From a virus, in IMG/VR virus record IMGVR_UViG_3300005590_000085, positions 1 through 20,906 of that record: a stretch of 20,906 bases of DNA, one strand, 5' to 3'. The number at the start of each line of letters is the position of its first letter. Position 1 is the stretch's first letter. Positions 5,518 through 20,166 of this stretch are shown here, piece by piece. Made by a program: the position numbers and the translations under genes. The notes under the pieces are model-generated. The model saw only the letters and a program-made list of their open reading frames with translations, had not been told where the DNA came from and searched no databases.

Positions 5518-6453
5518 TTAAGCGTGTAAGTTTAACTTACGAGAAGCTGCAACCTCATTGAGTTTATGAAGCCTTTTCTGGTGGAAAACATAACTAGGGT
5601 TTGTCTTGTCACCTTTCATAAGAACTGCATAAGATTCTCTGTACTGGGCCTTGATTTGTTCAACATTGTCCAGAGTTTCTCCTCCTCCACCATCGAGAGT
5701 TTTATCGTCGAGAATTTTCTTCCCTACAGTATTGAGCATCTTGATAACAGCTGGATCCGTGAGAAGTCCCGCTTTTTGATAGGCCGCTTGCTCCTCTTCA
5801 CTGAAAACTTTTTTGAAAGCTGTCTCAGCAATCTTGGCCTCTTTATCAAAATTGTCTCCCCAGTCTCCTTTGAGTTTGGCCACTTCAGCTTCATAGGCCT
5901 TGTCAGCCTCAGCATCAGATCCCTCAGCCATCTCAGCTTGGGCCTTTGCATAGTAACTAAAAAGAGCCTCAGCCTGTTTTGGAAGAACTCCAGCTTTGTG
6001 GGCCTCTTCTAAGAATCCTTTATTTATTGGATCCTCTGCGTTAAATCCGTCGATATTGAGCTTATAGTCCTCTGGTTTCTCAGGACGGCCCAATTGATTA
6101 TATATTTTATCCCACTCCTCTGGAGTAGTGGCATCTGAAGGTTTAAGAATTTTATCGGCCCCTACTAATTTCTGGGCGTGGATATTGGAAAGAAGTACTT
6201 TCCCTAGATCAAAATTCCCTGATTCCTTATCAAGAAACTTCATAATAGTTGGATTGTCGTGGTATTCCTTTGGAAAGTTCTCAGGGTAATTTACCTGTGG
6301 CCCATCCGCTGGGGGTGTGTCAGCTGGAGGTGTATCAGCCGGAGGAGTATCCGCTGGAGGTGTATCAGCCGGAGGAGTATCCGCTGGAGGTGCTCCCCCG
6401 CCTCCCCCAATAAGGTCAGCTCTATTCATAATTCTCTTAAATTCTCTTATCAT
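5518..6453 (-). CDS. Scaffolding / capsid assembly protein (T7 gp9-like)
   Basis: A 311-residue protein (T7 gp9 is 307), located between portal and capsid genes. After a short basic N-terminus and a run of five Gly (residues 16-20) comes a proline-rich stalk of six PPAD[TG] units (residues 22-51). The rest is acidic and highly helical with many Ala, Glu and Lys (FLEEAHKAGVLPKQAEALFSYYAKAQAEM, around 145-175), ending in a basic C-terminus (FHQKRLHKLNEVAASRKLNLHA), which is where scaffold proteins usually contact the capsid. The start overlaps the preceding stop (TAATG) and has a GGGAGAAG site. Role assigned from order, length and composition; the proline stalk is unusual. Confidence 0.85.
   Translation of the reverse strand: MIREFKRIMNRADLIGGGGGAPPADTPPADTPPADTPPADTPPADTPPADGPQVNYPENFPKEYHDNPTIMKFLDKESGNFDLGKVLLSNIHAQKLVGADKILKPSDATTPEEWDKIYNQLGRPEKPEDYKLNIDGFNAEDPINKGFLEEAHKAGVLPKQAEALFSYYAKAQAEMAEGSDAEADKAYEAEVAKLKGDWGDNFDKEAKIAETAFKKVFSEEEQAAYQKAGLLTDPAVIKMLNTVGKKILDDKTLDGGGGETLDNVEQIKAQYRESYAVLMKGDKTNPSYVFHQKRLHKLNEVAASRKLNLHA
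6301..6390 (-). repeat. In-frame 15-bp tandem repeat coding PPADT x5 + PPADG
   Basis: Six units of 15 bp. Adjacent units differ in synonymous positions, but a 30-bp two-unit block is duplicated almost exactly, which points to recent expansion by slippage. The repeat encodes the Pro-rich linker of the scaffold protein. Confidence 0.9.
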
Positions 6454-6757: not shown

Positions 6758-8344
6758 TTATACAGTTTGTCCAGCTTTACTCTCTATATCCGCTTCAATG
6801 CTTTCTTTCTCCAGCTCTTGAGCTTCAGCAGCAGCTTGAGAATCGGCCTCTCTCTTGTCGTCAATCTCCTCTTTATTCCTAAAGATAGAAGCATCTATTC
6901 CGTCCAATTGAGCTGTGAGAGACAGGGCCTCATCAAAATTGATTGGATCAAGGATAGATGGATTTTGGAGAGTTGTCGAGAGATTTACGGCCTGAGCTAT
7001 AAAATTTTGAACATTTCTACTTTCATTAGACTTTTGAGCCTTAGCGATCTGAGATCTATAGAAAACTTTAAGAGCCAGATCTTCAAGTTCCTCAGGGATA
7101 TCCTCTGGAACTTTCTTCTCAGCAATCATAACTTCCATGATTCTCCCGATCATAGGCTCGAGATATTCACTATGTAGCCTACCGAGAATAGGTGATAGTA
7201 GTCTTAAGTTCTCGTCATTACGGATATTTACCTCAAGCTCAGTCATTCTATCTGATCCACCTAACTGGAGTTGATCGATAAAAAATCCTTGCTTGATAGT
7301 TGATCTAACTTGATTAATGATCTCAAGGCCAATATCTGGACGGGCTCCTGATTGAAGAGGAGAAATTGTTTCTTGCATCCCTTGACGTACAGCAGTAATC
7401 CCACCAGCGGCTAGATTCATTCTACCTAAAACAGAGTCATGAGATACTAGCATCGGAGGATCAATAGCTTTTTGAGCTCCTCTGATTGTGGCCTTCATCA
7501 TCTGGTTAAGCATTTTAATATCTGGGAGAGTCTTCATAGTAGGAGATCTACCATAAGTCTCATTCCCTAATTTTGTCCATCTAGCTACAATCCACGGATT
7601 CTTATCGAAACCATCTTCTTTGAGCATTATTTTATGTTCTTTCCAAATATGGTAAGAGGCAAAAGGTTTGTTCAACTTATCAACTTTCCCTTTAAGTCTA
7701 TTCTTTCTCGGGGTTACCATGTGGATAACTTCAATTTTATCTCCGGCCTTTCTATTTTTTAGCTGCTGAAGTTTGTCCTCAGGGATATTTTCTTCTCCAT
7801 ATTTCTCGATGAGCTGCTCAGCTGACATCTTAATTATTCGAGAAACAGTATCAACGATACCTTTATGATTCTCTCTAACGTACAATTCAAATATGGCTAC
7901 AGTTAAGAACCTTAAGATATCATCTTCATCCTCATCAATGTACATGGCCCCTGTCCCAAGTGTGGCCAATTCCATATAAAACTCATGAGCTTCAGTTTGA
8001 AAATTTGTATTGTTTAAAACATCGTGAACTCTAGTAACAAGTTTCTTGATGTACTTTCTAACTCTCGTTTTCCGATCAGTTTCAGTAACCCCAGTAGAAA
8101 GGCCAAACCATTCTACACTTGGATTGGTGAGCATGGAGTGAAGTGCTGAGGAAAGTAACTCAATAAAGTGTTGAGCTGAAGAGTCGTAAAGCCGTTGGCC
8201 TCTCTTCTCTCCAGTAGTATTATTGTAGATTCTATTCTTGTGGGGAGCTCCATATCTTAAAGCATCCTCCCAATGATCAGTCCAGTTAGACCTCTCGGCT
8301 ACCATCTCATCGTGTAATTTACATACCTTTACAGGATCACTCAT
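6758..8344 (-). CDS. Portal / head-tail connector protein (T7 gp8-like)
   Basis: A 528-residue protein (T7 gp8 is 536), in the expected place before the scaffold. Conserved blocks of the head-tail connector family (Pfam Head-tail_con) are visible: RSNWTDHWEDALRYGAPHKN and GEKRGQRLYDSSAQHFIELLSSALHSMLTNP near the N-terminus (residues about 18-75), then the GTGAMYIDED segment, NPWIVARWTKLGNETYGRSP around residue 250, and the stem-forming GPLQ-type helices further on (ELEVNIRNDENLRLLSPILGRLHSEYLEPMI). The C-terminal 60 residues are a Glu/Ala-rich helix. The ATG at 8344 is preceded by a weak AGGTAGAT site, so translation may depend on coupling to the upstream gene, which stops 3 bases away. Confidence 0.93.
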   Translation of the reverse strand: MSDPVKVCKLHDEMVAERSNWTDHWEDALRYGAPHKNRIYNNTTGEKRGQRLYDSSAQHFIELLSSALHSMLTNPSVEWFGLSTGVTETDRKTRVRKYIKKLVTRVHDVLNNTNFQTEAHEFYMELATLGTGAMYIDEDEDDILRFLTVAIFELYVRENHKGIVDTVSRIIKMSAEQLIEKYGEENIPEDKLQQLKNRKAGDKIEVIHMVTPRKNRLKGKVDKLNKPFASYHIWKEHKIMLKEDGFDKNPWIVARWTKLGNETYGRSPTMKTLPDIKMLNQMMKATIRGAQKAIDPPMLVSHDSVLGRMNLAAGGITAVRQGMQETISPLQSGARPDIGLEIINQVRSTIKQGFFIDQLQLGGSDRMTELEVNIRNDENLRLLSPILGRLHSEYLEPMIGRIMEVMIAEKKVPEDIPEELEDLALKVFYRSQIAKAQKSNESRNVQNFIAQAVNLSTTLQNPSILDPINFDEALSLTAQLDGIDASIFRNKEEIDDKREADSQAAAEAQELEKESIEADIESKAGQTV

Positions 8345-8346
8345 AT

Positions 8347-8745
8347 CTACCTATCTGTTAAAATTAATTGTTTTCTACCTTGTATTTGCTCTTGTCGGAC
8401 AAGGCTCGATTGCCTTTGTCTGAATCTAGTAACAAGAGTTTTTAATTGATCTTGAGTTACATCAGCAAAGAAAGCTTTCCTTTCCTCTTCATGTTTTTGT
8501 CTTCTCTCCTCTAGTCGCTTTCTATCGGCCAACTTTTGAGAGTCTGTTCTTTTATCATCTCTAAATGAGAAAGGAGATCTACCTTTAAACTTTTCAAATT
8601 TACCTGATACATCTTGAGTAAAGTCGGTAAGGGAGTTGAACTCTCCAGCCTGAGTTAAACCTTTTTCAGTTAGGGCCTCAAACTTCTCTCGGGAAATACC
8701 TCTATGAAATTTATCTCGTTTTCTTGAAGAACTACCTGTACTCAT
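8347..8745 (-). CDS. Highly charged small protein between terminase and portal
   Basis: A 132-residue protein, about a third Lys, Arg, Asp and Glu. It contains a helical segment KRLEERRQKHEEERKAFFADVTQDQLKTLVTRFRQRQ (in two parts, residues about 78-113) and ends GRKQLILTDR. Its position between terL and portal is shared by small proteins of unknown role in other podoviruses, some of which also end in a Gly-Arg-(x)-x-x-(L/V)LT motif. It may be a head-assembly or virion protein, but I do not recognise a family. The ATG follows the terminase stop directly (TAAATG). Confidence 0.7.
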   Translation of the reverse strand: MSTGSSSRKRDKFHRGISREKFEALTEKGLTQAGEFNSLTDFTQDVSGKFEKFKGRSPFSFRDDKRTDSQKLADRKRLEERRQKHEEERKAFFADVTQDQLKTLVTRFRQRQSSLVRQEQIQGRKQLILTDR

Positions 8746-10335
8746 TTAATGCTCCAATTCATCATAATCTAAATTTGCAGTCATAGGTTCGTTATTATTG
8801 TAGTTATTAAATAGCTCATCGTCTTGATCGTCAAGAGATGAGTAACCAAAGGAGTCCGAACCGTGAGAACTCCAGTCATGCTTAGGGGTAGACTTGAACA
8901 TCATTAGCTTAGAATCGTATTCCTTTTGGTAATTGAAAAGGCAATCGAGGCCCCTAGCACATTTTACTTTATCAAATTTAGAAACCCTTAGTCTAATCCT
9001 ACTTGCATTTATTCTATCTTCAACTGACTGTTTAGGTTGTATATACACGGGCCAAAGGCCGTTCTTTCTAGCCGACTCTTGTCTCGTAACACCAGTACCA
9101 AATTCTCGAGCCCTACCATCATGAGGCCAAACGTGCCTTACAATGTTATATGGTTTCTTATTAATTTCCTTTGCTATCTCTGGAACCCCAAGGCCATCAA
9201 CTTCTAGATAATCGATATAGTGCCAGAACCTTCCAACTTTTTGTCTAAACCAGACAGTACATTTATCTTTAATCCCAATATCCCAGAACGTAGATACTGG
9301 ATAGTTAGGATCATAAGGGAGCTCACATATCTGTCCAGCAGCCGTGATGTCGTTCATGATCTTCCCATAATAGGATCCAAGAATGGCCGCTGCAAAATCA
9401 CACTCAAGCTCTTGAGCTACTTCAGCCTCTTGAAGATCTTCAGTCATTTCATCAATTTCCGACTGAGCTAGGACTCCAGTTTCAGAGGCCTTATAGATTG
9501 CTCCATACCAATTTTTATTGGCAAGGTAAGTTCTATACCTCTTATATTGCTTTACAGTAAGCTTATTCTGCTTCTCATAGATTGCATCTCTATCTCTCGT
9601 AGGCATATCTTCAGTCAGCCCGAGAGACTTTTCAAACTTCTCCCACTTGGCTATTTGATAAGCCACATCATACCTAGCCTCATAATTGGCCACAAAATCC
9701 ATTGCCCCAATTGCTTGCATATATCTTCTATGAAAGTGATTCTTCCCTTTCGGAGTTCCTAGAAAAATCGCCCACGGCTCAAGAGTCCTACCTCTCAGAT
9801 CCACAAATACACCCATATCATTAGCAATCTTCTTTCTATCCGCTAATGCTGGACGAATAATCTGTCCCCAGATAATCGGATCACATTGAGCAAATTCATC
9901 CAGAACAGCTCCATCTAAATAAAGCCCCCTGAGCGAATCCGGACTATCCGAACCAATCAACATGAACTTCACATGGTCAGGATCCGACTCTCCAGTAACA
10001 GGATCTTTTCTCCAAGGCCTTGGAATAACTATCTCCAAGTCCCCTTTATTAGGTTTAGTATTTGGAATATGTCTCGTAAAATCTAGGAAATATTGCCATG
10101 CAATTTGTTTGGCTTGCTTATAAGTAGGAGCCACATACGCATATTGCGGATTCCTAAGTGGATTCGTTAATCCTCGATCAATGATCTCATTAACTGTAAG
10201 TACAGTCTTTCCAAAACGTCTATGACAAACCAGAACATTAAAACGCTTTAGAGTAAGGTGTACTTCTTTTTGGAATCTTCGGGGCTTGTAAAGAGGCTTT
10301 AACCTCTTTACTTCCCCATCAGATTTAGAGCTCAG
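8746..10335 (-). CDS. terL: Terminase large subunit, start codon non-canonical or frameshifted
   Basis: The DNA-packaging motor: N-terminal ATPase and C-terminal nuclease. Reading the frame from 10335 gives about 529 residues. YKPRRFQKEVH (residues 16-26) is followed by the Walker A motif VCHRRFGKT (36-44) and YVAPTYKQAKQIAW. Walker B is GLYLDGAVLDEFAQ, and the coupling motif is IFLGTPKGKNHFH. The nuclease part shows FWDIG, then WPHDG, and finally HDWSSHGSDSFGY with the late acidic residues. No in-frame ATG, GTG or TTG exists between the upstream in-frame stop (10339-10341) and the Walker A motif. The first conventional start (GTG at 10134) would delete Walker A, so translation must begin at CTG 10335 or ATC 10338, 6-9 bases after GGAAGAAG, or arrive by +1 frameshift from the overlapping 88-aa gene. 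The identity is certain; the start is not. Confidence 0.93.
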   Translation of the reverse strand: MSSKSDGEVKRLKPLYKPRRFQKEVHLTLKRFNVLVCHRRFGKTVLTVNEIIDRGLTNPLRNPQYAYVAPTYKQAKQIAWQYFLDFTRHIPNTKPNKGDLEIVIPRPWRKDPVTGESDPDHVKFMLIGSDSPDSLRGLYLDGAVLDEFAQCDPIIWGQIIRPALADRKKIANDMGVFVDLRGRTLEPWAIFLGTPKGKNHFHRRYMQAIGAMDFVANYEARYDVAYQIAKWEKFEKSLGLTEDMPTRDRDAIYEKQNKLTVKQYKRYRTYLANKNWYGAIYKASETGVLAQSEIDEMTEDLQEAEVAQELECDFAAAILGSYYGKIMNDITAAGQICELPYDPNYPVSTFWDIGIKDKCTVWFRQKVGRFWHYIDYLEVDGLGVPEIAKEINKKPYNIVRHVWPHDGRAREFGTGVTRQESARKNGLWPVYIQPKQSVEDRINASRIRLRVSKFDKVKCARGLDCLFNYQKEYDSKLMMFKSTPKHDWSSHGSDSFGYSSLDDQDDELFNNYNNNEPMTANLDYDELEH

Positions 10336-10591
10336 GATCTACTTCTTCCGAAACAGCTTCTAGGATATCAATAAGATCTCCTTTCTTAGCTGACTTTGGA
10401 TATTCAATATTAAGCTCATCCAGCTTAGCCTGTAGTTCTTTTACAGTCATCCCTTCATACCCCGATGGATTCTCATCCACTGGTGGAGCTTCTGGAGCTG
10501 GTGATTCAGCATTAGCTTTAGCAGTAATGCTTGGTGGTAAATCCTTGTGCGAAACAAGTCGATTGTTAATTAAGTATCGCTTCTTAGCCAT
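10325..10591 (-). CDS. Small SAP/HeH-like protein upstream of terminase
   Basis: An 88-residue protein. The N-terminus is basic (MAKKRYLINNRLVSHKD), the middle is a Pro/Glu-rich linker, and the C-terminal part YEGMTVKELQAKLDELNIEYPKSAKKGDLIDILEAV (in sequence, residues about 45-80) has the two-helix pattern of SAP/HeH/LEM-type domains, also seen in Rho N-termini, which bind nucleic acid. The gene has a clear GAGGAGAAA site before its ATG. Its stop lies inside the terminase reading frame (overlap about 11 bases). It could assist packaging; that is inference. If a +1 frameshift occurs near the end, it would form the N-terminal extension of the large terminase. Confidence 0.75.
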   Translation of the reverse strand: MAKKRYLINNRLVSHKDLPPSITAKANAESPAPEAPPVDENPSGYEGMTVKELQAKLDELNIEYPKSAKKGDLIDILEAVSEEVDPEL

Positions 10592-11147: not shown

Positions 11148-11282
11148 AATCTCTCCTTTTTAGTTTCTCACAGTTTACCGCCCAACTTCTGTGGCTACCA
11201 GCTCTTTCCTCCCCCTAAGTAAAATTTACATATCCTTTAGAAACTCTCCCCGACAGGGGCATAGTCCTTGGAAGCATGTTGT

Positions 11283-11297
11283 TATGTTTTAAACATA
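11283..11297. promoter_or_regulatory. 15-bp palindrome, operator-like
   Basis: TATGTTT-T-AAACATA is a perfect palindrome about a single central base, immediately upstream of the tandem repeat array. It is a plausible binding site for a dimeric regulator. Confidence 0.45.
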
Positions 11298-11298
11298 G

Positions 11299-11417
11299 CG
11301 TTAAACCCTTAGGTGCTTTTTTGCCTCGAAGTTTTATAGGGTGCGTTAAACCTTTAGAGGCTTTTTGTCCCAATGATGTTTTATAAGGTGCGTTAAACCT
11401 TTAGAGGCTTTTTGTCT
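11299..11417. repeat. Three tandem copies of a ~45-bp unit
   Basis: Copies start at 11299, 11343 and 11390 (spacing 44 and 47). The core is GCGTTAAACC-(T/C)TTAG-(A/G)GGCTTTTTG, with copies 2 and 3 nearly identical. On the - strand the core folds as AAGCCT-CTAA-AGGTTT, and the spacers on that strand contain TATAAAAC. On the + strand each core ends in a T run and looks like a very small terminator. Candidate promoter, terminator or protein-binding array. Confidence 0.75.
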
Positions 11418-11591
11418 CTAAGTTTTCCCCCAGACGGTGCTCAAGGCTTTCCTAGGGGGTTTTGACTTCGTATATACAACATAGAATCTCCGTATATATA
11501 GACTTTTAAGTGTCCGATACTACGTGAAAAAATAGGCTCACTGACTTCTGGGCACGGTTGCCTCTGTGATATCGATAGGATACAAGGATTA

Positions 11592-11623
11592 AAACGCACT
11601 ATAGTCATTATTATCGTGCGTTT
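11592..11623. repeat. Inverted repeat AAACGCAC / GTGCGTTT
   Basis: An 8-bp perfect inverted repeat separated by 16 bases containing TATAGTCATTATTA. It shares the GCGTT core with the tandem units upstream. Confidence 0.6.
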
Positions 11624-11636
11624 CATAGAATATACG

Positions 11637-11666
11637 TTGACCATTAGGACATACTCTTTAGGTCAA
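11637..11666. repeat. Inverted repeat TTGACC / GGTCAA
   Basis: 6-bp arms around 18 bases. Each arm resembles a -35 hexamer, one per strand, but neither has a good -10 at the correct distance. Confidence 0.45.
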
Positions 11667-11716
11667 GGCGTTTCATGATAGTTTGGTGATAAGTAACTAA
11701 TAACTCGTCAAACGCC
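11667..11716. repeat. Inverted repeat GGCGTTT / AAACGCC
   Basis: 7-bp arms separated by 36 bases; a further pair of the GCGTTT motif family in this control region. Confidence 0.5.
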
Positions 11717-11864
11717 ACTAAGACTCTCAATACGATATCACTCCCAACCCTACATATTGTGTAATTAAGCATCCCACCAATAAAAACACCACTACATATA
11801 AGGACAAATTGACGTTATTAAAAAAGTGCTAGGTGATATCCTTAACACCGTGTATAATACAAGC

Positions 11865-12038
11865 ATGACTATACTTATCACATCGACACTATTTTACATG
11901 AGTACTCAGCTTGTAACACCTTACAACTCTTGTATCAAGAGCCTGAGAAATGACCCTAGATTCCATGAGTCTATAAATGAAAAGACTTATAACAAGTTTA
12001 GGAAGTTCTGCAAAAAGTATAAAAAAAGAATTGCATAA
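11865..12038 (+). CDS. Possible small membrane protein, first gene of the rightward block
   Basis: From ATG 11865 the frame gives 57 residues: a hydrophobic N-terminus (ILITSTLFYMSTQLVTPY, about residues 3-20) and a very basic C-terminus (NKFRKFCKKYKKRIA), which suggests a single membrane segment. The frame extends 13 codons upstream to a GTG at 11826. Neither start has a recognisable ribosome site. A TATAAT at 11853-11858 would put transcription start at about the ATG, meaning a leaderless message. Function unknown, and the gene itself is uncertain. Confidence 0.4.
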   Translation: MTILITSTLFYMSTQLVTPYNSCIKSLRNDPRFHESINEKTYNKFRKFCKKYKKRIA

Positions 12039-12114
12039 ACTGAAAAGAGCCAAAAAAGCCTATCGACTCTAAAGTGTTGAAACAAGGCAAAAATCGAAAA
12101 TAAAAATAAAATAC

Positions 12115-12143
12115 TTGAAAAAAGTGTTTTTTTCTCTTGTAAT
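12115..12143 (+). promoter_or_regulatory. Sigma70-like promoter
   Basis: TTGAAA (12115-12120), a 17-base spacer and TGTAAT (12138-12143). The expected start is near 12150, giving a short leader to the 46-aa gene and the following operon. This is one of the two clearest host-type promoters in the window. Confidence 0.7.
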
Positions 12144-12170
12144 TAATAACGCTCCGTGCAATAATCATAG

Positions 12171-12207
12171 ATACCAAAAACAAAACTAACTAACTATCGA
12201 GGTAACT
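12171..12207 (+). promoter_or_regulatory. Repeated A/C-rich translation leader, copy 1
   Basis: The mRNA leader of the 46-aa gene: GATACCAAAAACAAA, then TAAC repeats, then ATCGAGGTAACT before the ATG. It has almost no G before the GAGG site, so it is probably unstructured. Near-identical leaders precede the genes at 12392 and 12931. Confidence 0.65.
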
Positions 12208-12348
12208 ATGAAAAAACTACTTACACTAATTGCACTCTGTTCTATCCTATCAGCATTTCAAAACATGACATCAGAAGACGCTAAACTAGCTAAGAAATTC
12301 AAGTATGAGAATACATCTATCAACATGTACATGCTTGCAACTGAATAA
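12208..12348 (+). CDS. 46-aa secreted or membrane mini-protein
   Basis: A short gene with a convincing ribosome site (GAGGT, 5 bases before the ATG). The product starts MKKLLTLIALCSILSAF, a textbook signal-peptide or membrane-anchor start: two Lys, then a hydrophobic core of about 14 residues. A polar Lys/Asn/Thr-rich tail with three Met follows. No lipobox is present, because the residue before Cys11 is Leu. It lies directly downstream of the promoter at 12115-12143, so it is probably strongly expressed early. Function unknown; an envelope-acting host-takeover peptide or superinfection factor is possible but unproven. Confidence 0.65.
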   Translation: MKKLLTLIALCSILSAFQNMTSEDAKLAKKFKYENTSINMYMLATE

Positions 12349-12355
12349 AATATCG

Positions 12356-12391
12356 ATACCAAAAACAAACTACTAACTAAAGAGGTGAAAA
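12356..12391 (+). promoter_or_regulatory. Repeated A/C-rich translation leader, copy 2
   Basis: Starts with the same ATACCAAAAACAAA as copy 1, followed by ACTAACTAA and an AGAGGTGAAAA ribosome site before the ATG at 12392. Confidence 0.6.
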
Positions 12392-12930: not shown

Positions 12931-13830
12931 ATGACAACATTTAAGAAAGTAAAGCCACTATTTAACTTTATAAAAAAAGAGTATAGACAAACTCTTCAAA
13001 AAATACGTATTGACGAGAAAGGCATGAGTTGCACCGACTTAGAAACCTATCTAAGAATAAACGATACATTTGACCTTCAAAAAGGTTTTCAGGATATTCA
13101 AACCTTTGGGCTAGTCGATAGCGTGGAAGATTTTGAAAACTTCCCTATTTTTGATTTTACTATCGATACTATGAGAAATGATAAACTAAAAATAAGTGTT
13201 GACACTTTAAGTTATATTCTAAAATTTGCTAGTAAGGATGAAACTAGATTGCATCTTAATGGCGTGGCTCTTTATAGAGACTTATTGGTTGCTTGTGATG
13301 GTCATACAATGTCTTATATTGAGCACGGGTTAGAAAATAACGATAATTATATTATGCCCAGAACATCCATAGCACTACTAATAAGAGCTTGTAAGGCTTA
13401 TAAATTAAAAGAAATTGAATTGCAGTTTGGTGACGATTTTACAATAGTAGAGAGTGAGTTTTTCTCTTTTAAAATGAGAAATATCTATAGGGAATACCCT
13501 AACATTAAAACTGTGATTCCTACTAGGTTTACTCATACGTTAGAGGTTACTAATTGGGTCAATATGAAAGAACTTAAGTCTTTATTTTGCCCTCATTTCA
13601 AATGTAAGTTAAAAGAAGTTGAAGGCAGTCTAGTTTTGATTCCTAAACAATACCCAGATAACCAGTATATAATTGGGAAGTGTAGTCTTCCTAATTTTGA
13701 AATGTTTTTCAATGCTTCTTATATTGAAAGAGCTTCAAATGGTTTAAAAGAATTTGAAATTAAAATAAATAACGACTTAACTCCCACTATGATAAATGGC
13801 TCTATAGTCATGCCTCAGAGGGATGTTTAA
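12931..13830 (+). CDS. Diverged DNA polymerase sliding clamp (beta-clamp-like)
   Basis: A 299-residue protein that reads like a compact bacterial beta clamp. Residues 24-45 (KIRIDEKGMSCTDLETYLRI) match the domain I pattern in which a strand is followed by TDLE. Residues 87-132 (LKISVDTLSYILKFASKDETRLHLNGVALYRDLLVACDGHTMSYIE, here in pieces) match the domain II hallmark R..L.GV......LVA-DGH. IMPRTSIALLIRACK and FKMRNIYREYPNIKTVIP match the iIP and G-x-YP-x-x-x-VIP segments. A clamp encircles DNA and tethers the polymerase; this fits the replication genes 6 kb downstream. E. coli DnaN is 366 aa, so this is a shortened form. It sits in a short operon with its own leader and ends at a strong terminator. 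The call is by motif, without a search. Confidence 0.7.
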   Translation: MTTFKKVKPLFNFIKKEYRQTLQKIRIDEKGMSCTDLETYLRINDTFDLQKGFQDIQTFGLVDSVEDFENFPIFDFTIDTMRNDKLKISVDTLSYILKFASKDETRLHLNGVALYRDLLVACDGHTMSYIEHGLENNDNYIMPRTSIALLIRACKAYKLKEIELQFGDDFTIVESEFFSFKMRNIYREYPNIKTVIPTRFTHTLEVTNWVNMKELKSLFCPHFKCKLKEVEGSLVLIPKQYPDNQYIIGKCSLPNFEMFFNASYIERASNGLKEFEIKINNDLTPTMINGSIVMPQRDV

Positions 13831-14329: not shown

Positions 14330-14568
14330 AAAACTGGTGTAAAAATCCCAATTGTATGAACTATCGAGAAAATAAATACTCTCCTAAACAAAGTTTTTGC
14401 ACTCCCCATTGTAGGGACGATTATCAAGTAGAACATTTTAAAAGAGTGATGGCAGTTAAGAATATAAAGTTAACTGCTGATAGACTTGAAATAACAGAGA
14501 AAAAAGCCCGCACTTGGCTTTACAGGTACTTCCAAACAGGTGTTAAGCCTAAAATATCTAGTTTATAA
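14326..14568 (+). CDS. Zinc-finger and helix-turn-helix protein
   Basis: An 80-residue protein with four cysteines arranged C5-x4-C10-x14-C25-x3-C29 (WCKNPNC ... FCTPHCRDDY), a zinc-knuckle or treble-clef-like arrangement. A segment that looks like a helix-turn-helix follows (LTADRLEITEKKARTWLYRY, residues about 49-68). It is probably a small DNA-binding regulator; the target is unknown. GAGGTG ribosome site; coupled by ATGA to the mini-gene. Its last 6 bases overlap tail to tail with the leftward terminase small subunit gene (14563). Confidence 0.72.
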   Translation: MKNWCKNPNCMNYRENKYSPKQSFCTPHCRDDYQVEHFKRVMAVKNIKLTADRLEITEKKARTWLYRYFQTGVKPKISSL

Positions 14569-15141
14569 GTCCCACGGCTCCGATTCATTGTCGGAGTCTT
14601 TCACATCTTCACCCTTGGAGCCGATAGGATTCACTACTATTTCAGCATCTTCAATAACAGGCTCGTCTAAGAATGATTCATAGGGTAGAGCCTGTTTATT
14701 CAAGGTCAAGGCGTTCTCAGAAATTTTCCCAGCTCCAACTTCATCATGGTCAAGGTGTTTTGGAACTATTTGTCCTTCAACGTCTGGAAGTGCTGTAGGA
14801 ACTCCAGTATCAATAACAATAGTAAGGCCTTCCTTTCCAATGAGAGCTGTATTCTCTTTGAATTGATCTGGAAAGAAGTTTTTAAGAGCAAAAATTGTAG
14901 TGGCCGGAGCACCTTTGATAGTCCCATCAGATTGCTGAAGTACAATATCTTCCCACTTACTCATCTGACATAACATTCCAAGCTCTTTAGCGTTGGCCCA
15001 TTCAGGTATATGTTTCTCCCACCTTTTCATAGTACTCAAGGTAACTTTAATTTCAGCTCCAAACGTAGCATAAGACTTTCCCTTGCTCATGTGTACAAGT
15101 AAGTCTTCACAATATAGTAAATCAAATTTAGTAATTCCCAC
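14563..15141 (-). CDS. terS: Terminase small subunit
   Basis: A 192-residue protein with the small-terminase pattern: a helix-turn-helix region SYATFGAEIKVTLSTMKRWEKHIPEWANAKELG (in pieces, residues about 23-55), then MSKWEDIVLQ, and ATTIFALKNFFPDQFKEN, the usual FALKN(R/F)(F)P..(W/F)KE segment. The C-terminal third is acidic and probably disordered (GEDVKDSDNESEPWDL). It recognises the phage DNA packaging site and regulates TerL. The GTG start at 15141 has GGGAGAAG 5 bases upstream, inside the HNH gene, with which it overlaps by 14 bases. It is on the opposite strand from its neighbours and about 4 kb from terL, an uncommon layout. Confidence 0.85.
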   Translation of the reverse strand: MGITKFDLLYCEDLLVHMSKGKSYATFGAEIKVTLSTMKRWEKHIPEWANAKELGMLCQMSKWEDIVLQQSDGTIKGAPATTIFALKNFFPDQFKENTALIGKEGLTIVIDTGVPTALPDVEGQIVPKHLDHDEVGAGKISENALTLNKQALPYESFLDEPVIEDAEIVVNPIGSKGEDVKDSDNESEPWDL

Positions 15142-15532
15142 GGCTGCTTCTCCCTCTTAAGCCTTTCTTCTTACCTCTAAAACGCATAGTCTTATTGGCA
15201 TGACATCCCTTACATAATACTTGAAGATTATCTTTATCGCAAAACAGGGCTTTTATCCAGAGAATGAGACTCTCCTCATCCATTTTTGAAGGTGTTGGGA
15301 GATTTTTGGCCACTTCAACGATATGGTCAACTTCCACATTGTCATTATCAAAAAGATTTTTACAATCATTACATCTAAATTTAACTTTATATTTAATCTT
15401 CCCATTTTTGTGCCGTCCAATTTTTACACGTTTCTTAGATTCTGCTAACACTTCATTGCGAACATGCCATATAATAGAAGCCTGTCTCAATTGGTTCTGG
15501 ATTAATTTGACTGTTCTGGTATCAATGTGCAT
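15128..15532 (-). CDS. HNH endonuclease beside terminase small subunit
   Basis: A 134-residue protein with a zinc-stabilised HNH fold: FRCNDC (C54, C57), VEVDHIVEVAKN (D69-H70), then DNLQVLCKGCHANKT (N102, C107, C110, H111). The N-terminal 50 residues are basic and the C-terminus is a run of basic residues (RFRGKKKGLRGRSSRG). HNH proteins next to terminase genes are required for DNA cleavage at packaging sites in several phages, which makes a packaging role likelier than a homing role here; that is inference. It has no good ribosome site before its ATG and starts only 35 bases from the divergent gene at 15568. Confidence 0.88.
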   Translation of the reverse strand: MHIDTRTVKLIQNQLRQASIIWHVRNEVLAESKKRVKIGRHKNGKIKYKVKFRCNDCKNLFDNDNVEVDHIVEVAKNLPTPSKMDEESLILWIKALFCDKDNLQVLCKGCHANKTMRFRGKKKGLRGRSSRGNY

Positions 15533-18428: not shown

Positions 18429-18652
18429 TGAATAGTCAGACGTGGTACGAGCAAATATTGGTAAGAATGGAGAAGCTAAGAAAAAGACTTGATATAGTTA
18501 AGGGCTCCGATAAGATTTGTAAAAGAGATGCTGAGCAAAGTTTAAAGTCAGCAATATATAATTTAAGTAGGTGGAAGCTTTTTATGGAAGAATATCCCCA
18601 ATTCAAAACAATAACTACACCCTATAGAGAAAGATTAACTGAGGCTAACTAA
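18428..18652 (+). CDS. Hypothetical helical protein, 74 aa
   Basis: The start is set at GTG 18428, 5 bases after AAGGAG and overlapping the previous stop; the GTG two codons upstream falls inside the ribosome site. Helical and basic (EQILVRMEKLRKRLDIVKG, DAEQSLKSAIYNLSRWKLFMEEY). TAATG overlap with the helicase gene suggests linked expression, perhaps as a small partner. Function unknown. Confidence 0.72.
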   Translation: MNSQTWYEQILVRMEKLRKRLDIVKGSDKICKRDAEQSLKSAIYNLSRWKLFMEEYPQFKTITTPYRERLTEAN

Positions 18653-20166
18653 TGAACTCGCTAGATTTAGCGGAAGTGATAATAGATAAGTTCCCTATTA
18701 ACCGCAAGACCGCTGCTAACTATTTCTTTGAAGATGGTACTAGAAAGAATCGTCTTAAGTTTGGAGAGGAAATTTTCGACCTCAACAATCTTATGGAGTT
18801 TGCTCCTGAGGCTGCTATGGAATTTGGAAAGAAGTCAGCCGATGCTAAGAAGAAATATAAGCAAAGAACTATGGCCAAAGTCGATGAGATTGTCTCGGAA
18901 ATATCGAGTAGGACTCATACCAATATAGATCCTAGCCAATTAAAGGAACTTCATATTGTAGATACTGCCTTTGATTTTGAGAAGTTCATACTTTTTAAGA
19001 ACATGACTAAAGGAAAGTATGCTGGGGAGTCAGTAGTATTCTCTCTACCTGATAGACAGATCACGGACATTGATCCTGAGATTTATTTAGATTCTATGAG
19101 TAGAGAAATGAGAGCTAACTATAGACCTATCCAATGTATCTTTAAATACGATCCGTACAACATCTCTCCGATTAATCAAGGGATGCTATATGGACAGACA
19201 ATCAATGAAGTAAATATTTATAAACCACCAAAGTGGAGACTTGAGAACTACCTTTCTAAAGGAGAGGAGAAAGTTCCAGCGGTTATAGCTAAATTTTTAA
19301 AACATCTATTCCCAGATAGAGAGGTAAGACTTTTTGTCTGTGCATGGCTTAAGAACGCATTACTCTACAGATCTGAAACTTACTTAGTTCTCAACGGGGC
19401 AAAGGGAGCTGGTAAAGGACTCTTTGTAGAATTATGTCGTAACTTAGTTGGTAAGGAAAACTTTGGGAAAGCTCCAAAGTCCTTACTTACTAAGGAATTT
19501 AATACAGTCTTAGAAGACAAGAGATTGATCTTTATGGACGAGCTTAGAATCGATAAGCCAGCTTACAATAGACTAAAGGACTTGATTAATGAAGACCATA
19601 ATATTGAAAAGAAAGGTAAGGACGCTAACAATCTTACTAAAACTTTTAATAGTTTTATTATCAACAATAACGATATACAAGATGTACGGGTAGAGCACGA
19701 CGATAGAAGATTCTCTTGTACTGAAATTACAAACAAACCTCTTAAGGAAGTTTATACTCAAGAGGAAATTAGAGAGCTAGTAGAAGCTTTCCAAGATGAA
19801 GACATTATTAGAGAGTTTGGAAATTGGCTTATCCAGTACGAGCACCCTGTTTATCACGATCCATTTTATATGTGGAAGGGAGAGAAGTTTCATAGTCTTG
19901 TTTTCTCTTCATTATACGGCTGGCAACAATACATTGTTGAGAAGTTACTTGAGGATAATTATAAAGACCTTCCAATCAGTGTGCTTAAAATGGATGCTGA
20001 AGATGCTGGGAATAAGTTCCCTAGTTCTAGTACAAAGATCGATAGCTTCCTTCAGAACTATTTCCATCGCGGAGAGAAGAGACTGGGAAGGCTTAAGAAA
20101 GTTAAGAACGTGTGGACGCTATATAAGTTTAGAGTTGGACAAGTGGAAGAGGAGTTAGATCTGTGA
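18652..20166 (+). CDS. SF3-type DNA helicase (DUF5906-like replication protein)
   Basis: 504 residues. The C-terminal half is a superfamily 3 AAA+ helicase: Walker A NGAKGAGKG (248-256), Walker B LIFMDEL (292-298), motif C/sensor FIINNND (335-341), and an arginine finger at DDRRFS (350-355). The block AVIAKFLKHLFPDREVRLFVCAWLKNALL (in pieces, 210-238), upstream of Walker A, is typical of DUF5906/D5-type phage proteins. The N-terminal 200 residues do not show a clear primase catalytic motif (no obvious AEP hDhD). It probably unwinds DNA at the origin. It is preceded by small genes and followed by an HNH gene and a polymerase-like gene in one overlapping operon. Confidence 0.85.
   Translation: MNSLDLAEVIIDKFPINRKTAANYFFEDGTRKNRLKFGEEIFDLNNLMEFAPEAAMEFGKKSADAKKKYKQRTMAKVDEIVSEISSRTHTNIDPSQLKELHIVDTAFDFEKFILFKNMTKGKYAGESVVFSLPDRQITDIDPEIYLDSMSREMRANYRPIQCIFKYDPYNISPINQGMLYGQTINEVNIYKPPKWRLENYLSKGEEKVPAVIAKFLKHLFPDREVRLFVCAWLKNALLYRSETYLVLNGAKGAGKGLFVELCRNLVGKENFGKAPKSLLTKEFNTVLEDKRLIFMDELRIDKPAYNRLKDLINEDHNIEKKGKDANNLTKTFNSFIINNNDIQDVRVEHDDRRFSCTEITNKPLKEVYTQEEIRELVEAFQDEDIIREFGNWLIQYEHPVYHDPFYMWKGEKFHSLVFSSLYGWQQYIVEKLLEDNYKDLPISVLKMDAEDAGNKFPSSSTKIDSFLQNYFHRGEKRLGRLKKVKNVWTLYKFRVGQVEEELDL

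Follow-up and report, generated by a model that had tools for sequence, protein, structure and literature searches.

The window studied here, a 20,906-nucleotide stretch of DNA from an uncultured tailed phage (IMG/VR record IMGVR_UViG_3300005590_000085), raises the question of how a large terminase, TerL, is translated when its reading frame appears to offer no start codon. The terL open frame lies on the minus strand at 8746–10338, comprises 530 codons counted from the codon after an in-frame TAG (10339–10341), and matches PHROG 2 (E 3e-33). Its product is a large terminase that is ~36–43% identical to those of HTVC010P-like and related phages, in which the Walker A motif HRRFGKT is present and alignments confirmed the conserved motor and nuclease domains. 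With the HTVC010P-like podoviruses and their relatives the window shares the PHROG 2 family, the YxPR block, Walker A and the order terL, small gene, portal, its portal/head-tail adaptor gene being at 6758–8344 (PHROG 332, E 9e-128). It differs from the isolates in that only ~36–43% of residues are identical and in having no canonical terL start, and from the HTVC-type terminases in long insertions in the middle of TerL (residues ~180–280, at ~9500–9800), which are common to the window and the relatives L018, L098, L101 and L214.

Translation of 10341–8740 on the minus strand gave a stop followed by ILSSKSDGEVKRLKPLYKPRRFQKEVHLTLKRFNVLVCHRRFGKT, with no ATG, GTG or TTG ahead of Walker A, which confirmed the earlier note's claim that none occurs between the in-frame TAG and that motif. 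The first start listed mechanically for terL, GTG 10134, lies beyond Walker A and was rejected, as its use would cost the protein this motif. Read-through of the TAG was also rejected: the frame upstream of it soon runs into more stops, and TAG ends two of the 26 listed genes. A mechanical survey, scoring ATG, GTG or TTG before the YxPR block, found the canonical start to be missing in the window alone among 167 homologous regions with the upstream stop in view; L133, scored at one point as a second start-less terL, turned out to have a normal ATG. In isolated phages an ATG or TTG lies a few codons ahead of the YxPR block. In random sequence of similar composition ~60% of 34-nt stretches have no in-frame start, and the absence is thus ordinary for non-coding DNA and exceptional for a real gene start.

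Immediately upstream, and overlapping the terL frame, is an 88-aa gene with a good SD (10325–10591, minus strand) that ends at TAA 10327–10325. The earlier note had called it SAP-like; its matches were to HeH/LEM (PF12949, E 1.1e-8) and Rho_N, not to SAP, whereas the observation that terL is in the +1 frame relative to it was correct. The upstream gene of L214 also matched the HeH family above the cut-off (E 2.3e-10), that of L018 gave a weak match below it (9e-4), and the Pfam search of the L215 gene gave no match.

The nearer kin of the window were brought in by scans with alignments; a single-query TerL search of viral contigs, a search with the HeH protein, and degenerate and exact DNA pattern searches for the start region returned nothing useful. 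The sister of the window is L214 (63% identity, clade support 100/100). As in the window, L214 has a HeH gene upstream of terL, terL in the +1 frame, and an overlap between the two genes. Its terL frame has no ATG or GTG, but two TTGs fall in the HeH tail in that frame, the nearer of which is the closest usable start and aligns exactly with the window TAG (GAA GTT GAA TCA GAG in L214, GAA GTA GAT CCT GAG in the window). The earlier note had expected a conserved absence of ATG with a retained overlap to favor recoding, and an ordinary start in the same place in relatives to speak against its reading. L214 bears out part of each: ATG and GTG are absent from its terL frame and the overlap is retained, and a TTG stands at the position of the window TAG. 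The alignment of this TTG with the TAG is suggestive only, since a HeH Val codon followed by Asp or Glu always yields TNG in the terL frame, so that a TTG opposite the TAG would be a one-in-four chance event. Between the HeH stop and YKPRR the window and L214 differ in length by 24 nt. A difference divisible by three is what translation of this stretch in the terL frame would predict; the chance of such a difference is 1/3.

In nine further relatives (L018, L098, L099, L101, L215, L217, L220, L229 and L237) terL starts at ATG or TTG, and these starts adjoin, overlap or slightly follow the stop of a short upstream gene, either overlapping it or sitting within ~20 nt of it (e.g., L098 at +6 and L099 at +11). 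TTG is a common terL start codon in this clade (L018, L215, L217 and L237). Several terL starts have no SD (L099, L101, L222 and L236) and others have one of about −1 kcal/mol (L098, L227, L229 and L237), and these mostly SD-poor starts fit restart by ribosomes fresh off the upstream gene. In the window, strong SDs of about −5 to −9 kcal/mol precede most genes.

Based on these comparisons, the reading that we favor, at a probability of roughly 0.4, is that TerL has its own initiation site in the HeH tail, used through stop-coupled reinitiation, with CTG 10335 or ATC 10338 as the probable start codon. On this view, terL would be an ordinary gene with its own start inside the HeH tail, as in L214, and ribosomes that finish HeH would reinitiate there without a good SD. 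Where L214 has its TTG the window reads TAG, and the codons that follow, ATC (10338–10336) and CTG (10335–10333), would be those most likely used; either would overlap the HeH gene by 11–14 nt. The weak SD-like GGAAGAAG within the HeH gene (10342–10349) gives these candidates an energy of −3.5 kcal/mol. It had been placed 6–9 bases from them; in fact 3 nt separate its end from ATC and 6 nt from CTG.

A near-cognate terL start is plausible but unproven. Such a codon is not kept in L214, which has its TTG just before the position of ATC/CTG and no near-cognate counterpart. CTG and ATC starts are rare and weak, and in the window they come with only a weak SD. A CUG start in E. coli gives 0.86% of the AUG level, and CUG makes up 0.024% of bacterial starts (PMC11497404). 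Because a CUG start is weak in E. coli, terL expression would be low, which may be tolerable for a motor needed in few copies. The seven residues ILSSKSD encoded upstream of the GEVK codons were not significantly similar to the N-termini of relatives (P 0.13); a candidate homology of SSKSD to L018 and L099 was dropped at this value, and coding upstream of the GEVK codons is for this reason not demonstrated. A further point against the favored reading is an out-of-frame ATG (10319–10317), overlooked in the earlier note, which lies 5 nt past the HeH stop, one base off the terL frame, and opens a mini-ORF, ATG GGG AAG TAA (10308–10319), in the same register as one in L214. Its SD energy is −1.9 kcal/mol, and an AUG at +5 would compete for the reinitiating ribosome.

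Directly after the HeH stop, folding and shuffle tests identified an RNA hairpin (10275–10324, minus strand), with an inner stem at 10311–10302/10297–10288 (GTAAAGAGGT/GCCTCTTTAC) and an outer stem at 10318–10314/10284–10280 (TGGGG/CCCCG). The fold has −26 kcal/mol for 76 nt, with a z of −3.8 against dinucleotide shuffles and of −4.0 to −4.6 against synonymous-codon shuffles (0 of 2000 in one test). Ranked against synonymous shuffles among 172 homologous regions, the window was first and L215 second; eight of the 172 had a z below −2.5, compared to two of 172 in a downstream control. The L214 hairpin (GTAGAGGG...CCCTCTAC, at homologous codons) had a z of −2.5. A sliding window that began at the presumed start, at the 5′ end of terL, gave P ≤ 0.05 in 11 of 19 clade members, and in the downstream controls 2 of 18 fell below a z of −1.8. 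These statistics describe a pattern found post hoc, in clade members that are related to each other. The hairpins lie at ~719–757 in L214, ~1511–1556 in L215, ~1403–1430 in L222 (stem GGCCCTAAC...GTTAGGGCC) and ~262–288 in L018, and no signal was seen in L217, L101, L221 or L238. What recurs is a stem soon past the upstream stop, while sequences and loop sizes vary between members. The hairpin region matched no Rfam family. The recurrent hairpin is a previously unreported feature and a new lead.

Under the favored separate start in the HeH tail, the hairpin just past the HeH stop would perhaps hold ribosomes. We put forward, as a doubtful extension, that a hairpin behind the upstream stop keeps ribosomes in place as they terminate, which would let terL restart with no SD and even from a near-cognate codon. 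This would be a bacterial-phage counterpart of viral termination-reinitiation, setting a low motor dose and letting start codons drift across the clade. In bacterial stop-coupled reinitiation, as here, the start is at most a few nucleotides from the upstream stop and genes overlap (PMC6728339, PMC10666635), and coupling depends on short stop-start distances (PMC10666635); the window differs in what would be a near-cognate start, in the mostly weak or absent SDs and in the hairpin that follows. The termination-reinitiation of caliciviruses and influenza B resembles it in the restart beside a stop, the tolerance of non-AUG codons and the structured RNA (PMC5972666, PMC3035654). In eukaryotes, a poor start was used more when a stem-loop lay downstream of it (PMC5972666). 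The calicivirus and influenza B systems use eukaryotic ribosomes and an upstream 18S-binding motif, making the analogy functional only, and the origin of non-AUG restart tolerance in eukaryotic systems counts against the favored reading.

The alternative that survives best, possible though we hold it to be somewhat unlikely, is that the record has one erroneous base, or that the assembled genome carries a private mutation, and that the TAG at 10341–10339 is TTG, an ordinary start. It explains the facts almost as well as separate initiation at a near-cognate codon: L214 has TTG at exactly that codon, the difference (GTT-GAA versus GTA-GAT) is synonymous in HeH, TTG starts are frequent in the clade, and all the surveyed relatives have a canonical start. 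The one-in-four chance of a TTG opposite the TAG, the terL codon being bound to read TNG, weakens the first of these points. A second IMG/VR record of this virus (3300010392_001141, L012/L294; 15,675 nt) had 0 differences from the window over 8,567 nt; provided that the two assemblies are independent, this bounds the error rate at ~3.5e-4 per base. The agreement speaks against an error, but the match stops at window position 8567 and does not reach the terL start.

Two further explanations turn on the out-of-frame ATG, and we consider both improbable. In the first, ribosomes would reinitiate at ATG 10319 and then slip by −1 on GGGG (ATG GGG to GGG GAA) at the hairpin, yielding M-G-E-V-K... The ATG is where relatives such as L098 and L099 start, full re-pairing is possible on GGGG, and the hairpin is at the site. 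A programmed −1 frameshift is marked by a conserved slippery site and a structure 5–9 nt downstream, but L214 has the same out-of-frame ATG without the GGGG run, and the window hairpin overlaps the site instead of lying at that distance. The ATG itself may simply result from conserved Asp-Gly codons (GAT GGN). In the second explanation the G run was miscounted, and a true GGGGG (or GG) would make ATG 10319 an ordinary start giving M(G)EVKRLK. Consistent with this, the relatives L148 and L104 begin MEVK (MEVKHISTGY in L148), L215 has an in-frame ATG at an equal distance from the YxPR block, and ~5% of the simulated stretches that lacked an in-frame start showed such a near miss. The independent record L214 carries ATG GAG ATG AAG TAG, likewise out of the terL frame by the same offset (5 versus 8 nt to the GTA codon). 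This shared offset looks inherited, which makes a miscount in the window less likely.

The weakest alternative, the earlier note's +1 frameshift at the HeH end (CTC-TAA) producing a HeH-TerL fusion, was not supported and appears very improbable: the +1 offset of both the window and L214 and the hairpin downstream of the stop are in its favor, but terL lies, with respect to the upstream gene, in frame 0 (L098, L215, L217 and L220), +1 (L101, L214 and the window) or +2 (L018 and L099) in a clade with ordinary starts, which argues against a conserved fusion or shift, no common shift site exists (CTC-TAA versus GTA-TAG in L214), and re-pairing would be poor (CTC to TCT, and GTA to TAT in L214). 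The +1 frameshift of prfB (RF2) takes place at CTT-TGA-C, with an SD 3 nt upstream. The window resembles it in that a Leu codon precedes the stop and the downstream frame is +1, and differs in that CTC-TAA has no SD at the prfB-like spacing of 3 nt and is not conserved in L214.

If the sequence as recorded is correct, an essential gene of the phage is without any canonical start codon, the relatives suggest how this loss can be tolerated, namely by restarting where the preceding gene ends, with little SD support and a hairpin ahead, and the locus would offer a compact system for studying start-codon looseness during bacterial reinitiation. If one base is wrong, terL is an ordinary gene.

Gene callers will shorten such terminases to a start beyond Walker A, and GenBank has precedents for this. 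The annotated terL genes of HTVC203P, Skadi-7 and HTVC100P (L002, L004 and L011) begin downstream of Walker A, and in all three an in-frame ATG or TTG lies ahead of the YxPR block, indicating that the annotated starts are misplaced.

Elsewhere in the window, a tRNA scan gave nothing useful, and ~1.2 kb between the two transcription directions (~11150–12390) has no convincing gene. A terS-like gene (PHROG 309, E 7e-4) and an HNH gene lie at 14563–15532 on the minus strand, separated from terL by plus-strand genes. The plus strand carries a sliding-clamp-like gene (12931–13830, PHROG 947) and a primase/helicase-like gene (18652–20166, DUF5906). Short tandem repeats at 6304–6392 encode PPADT repeats near the N-terminus of the protein encoded at 5518–6453.
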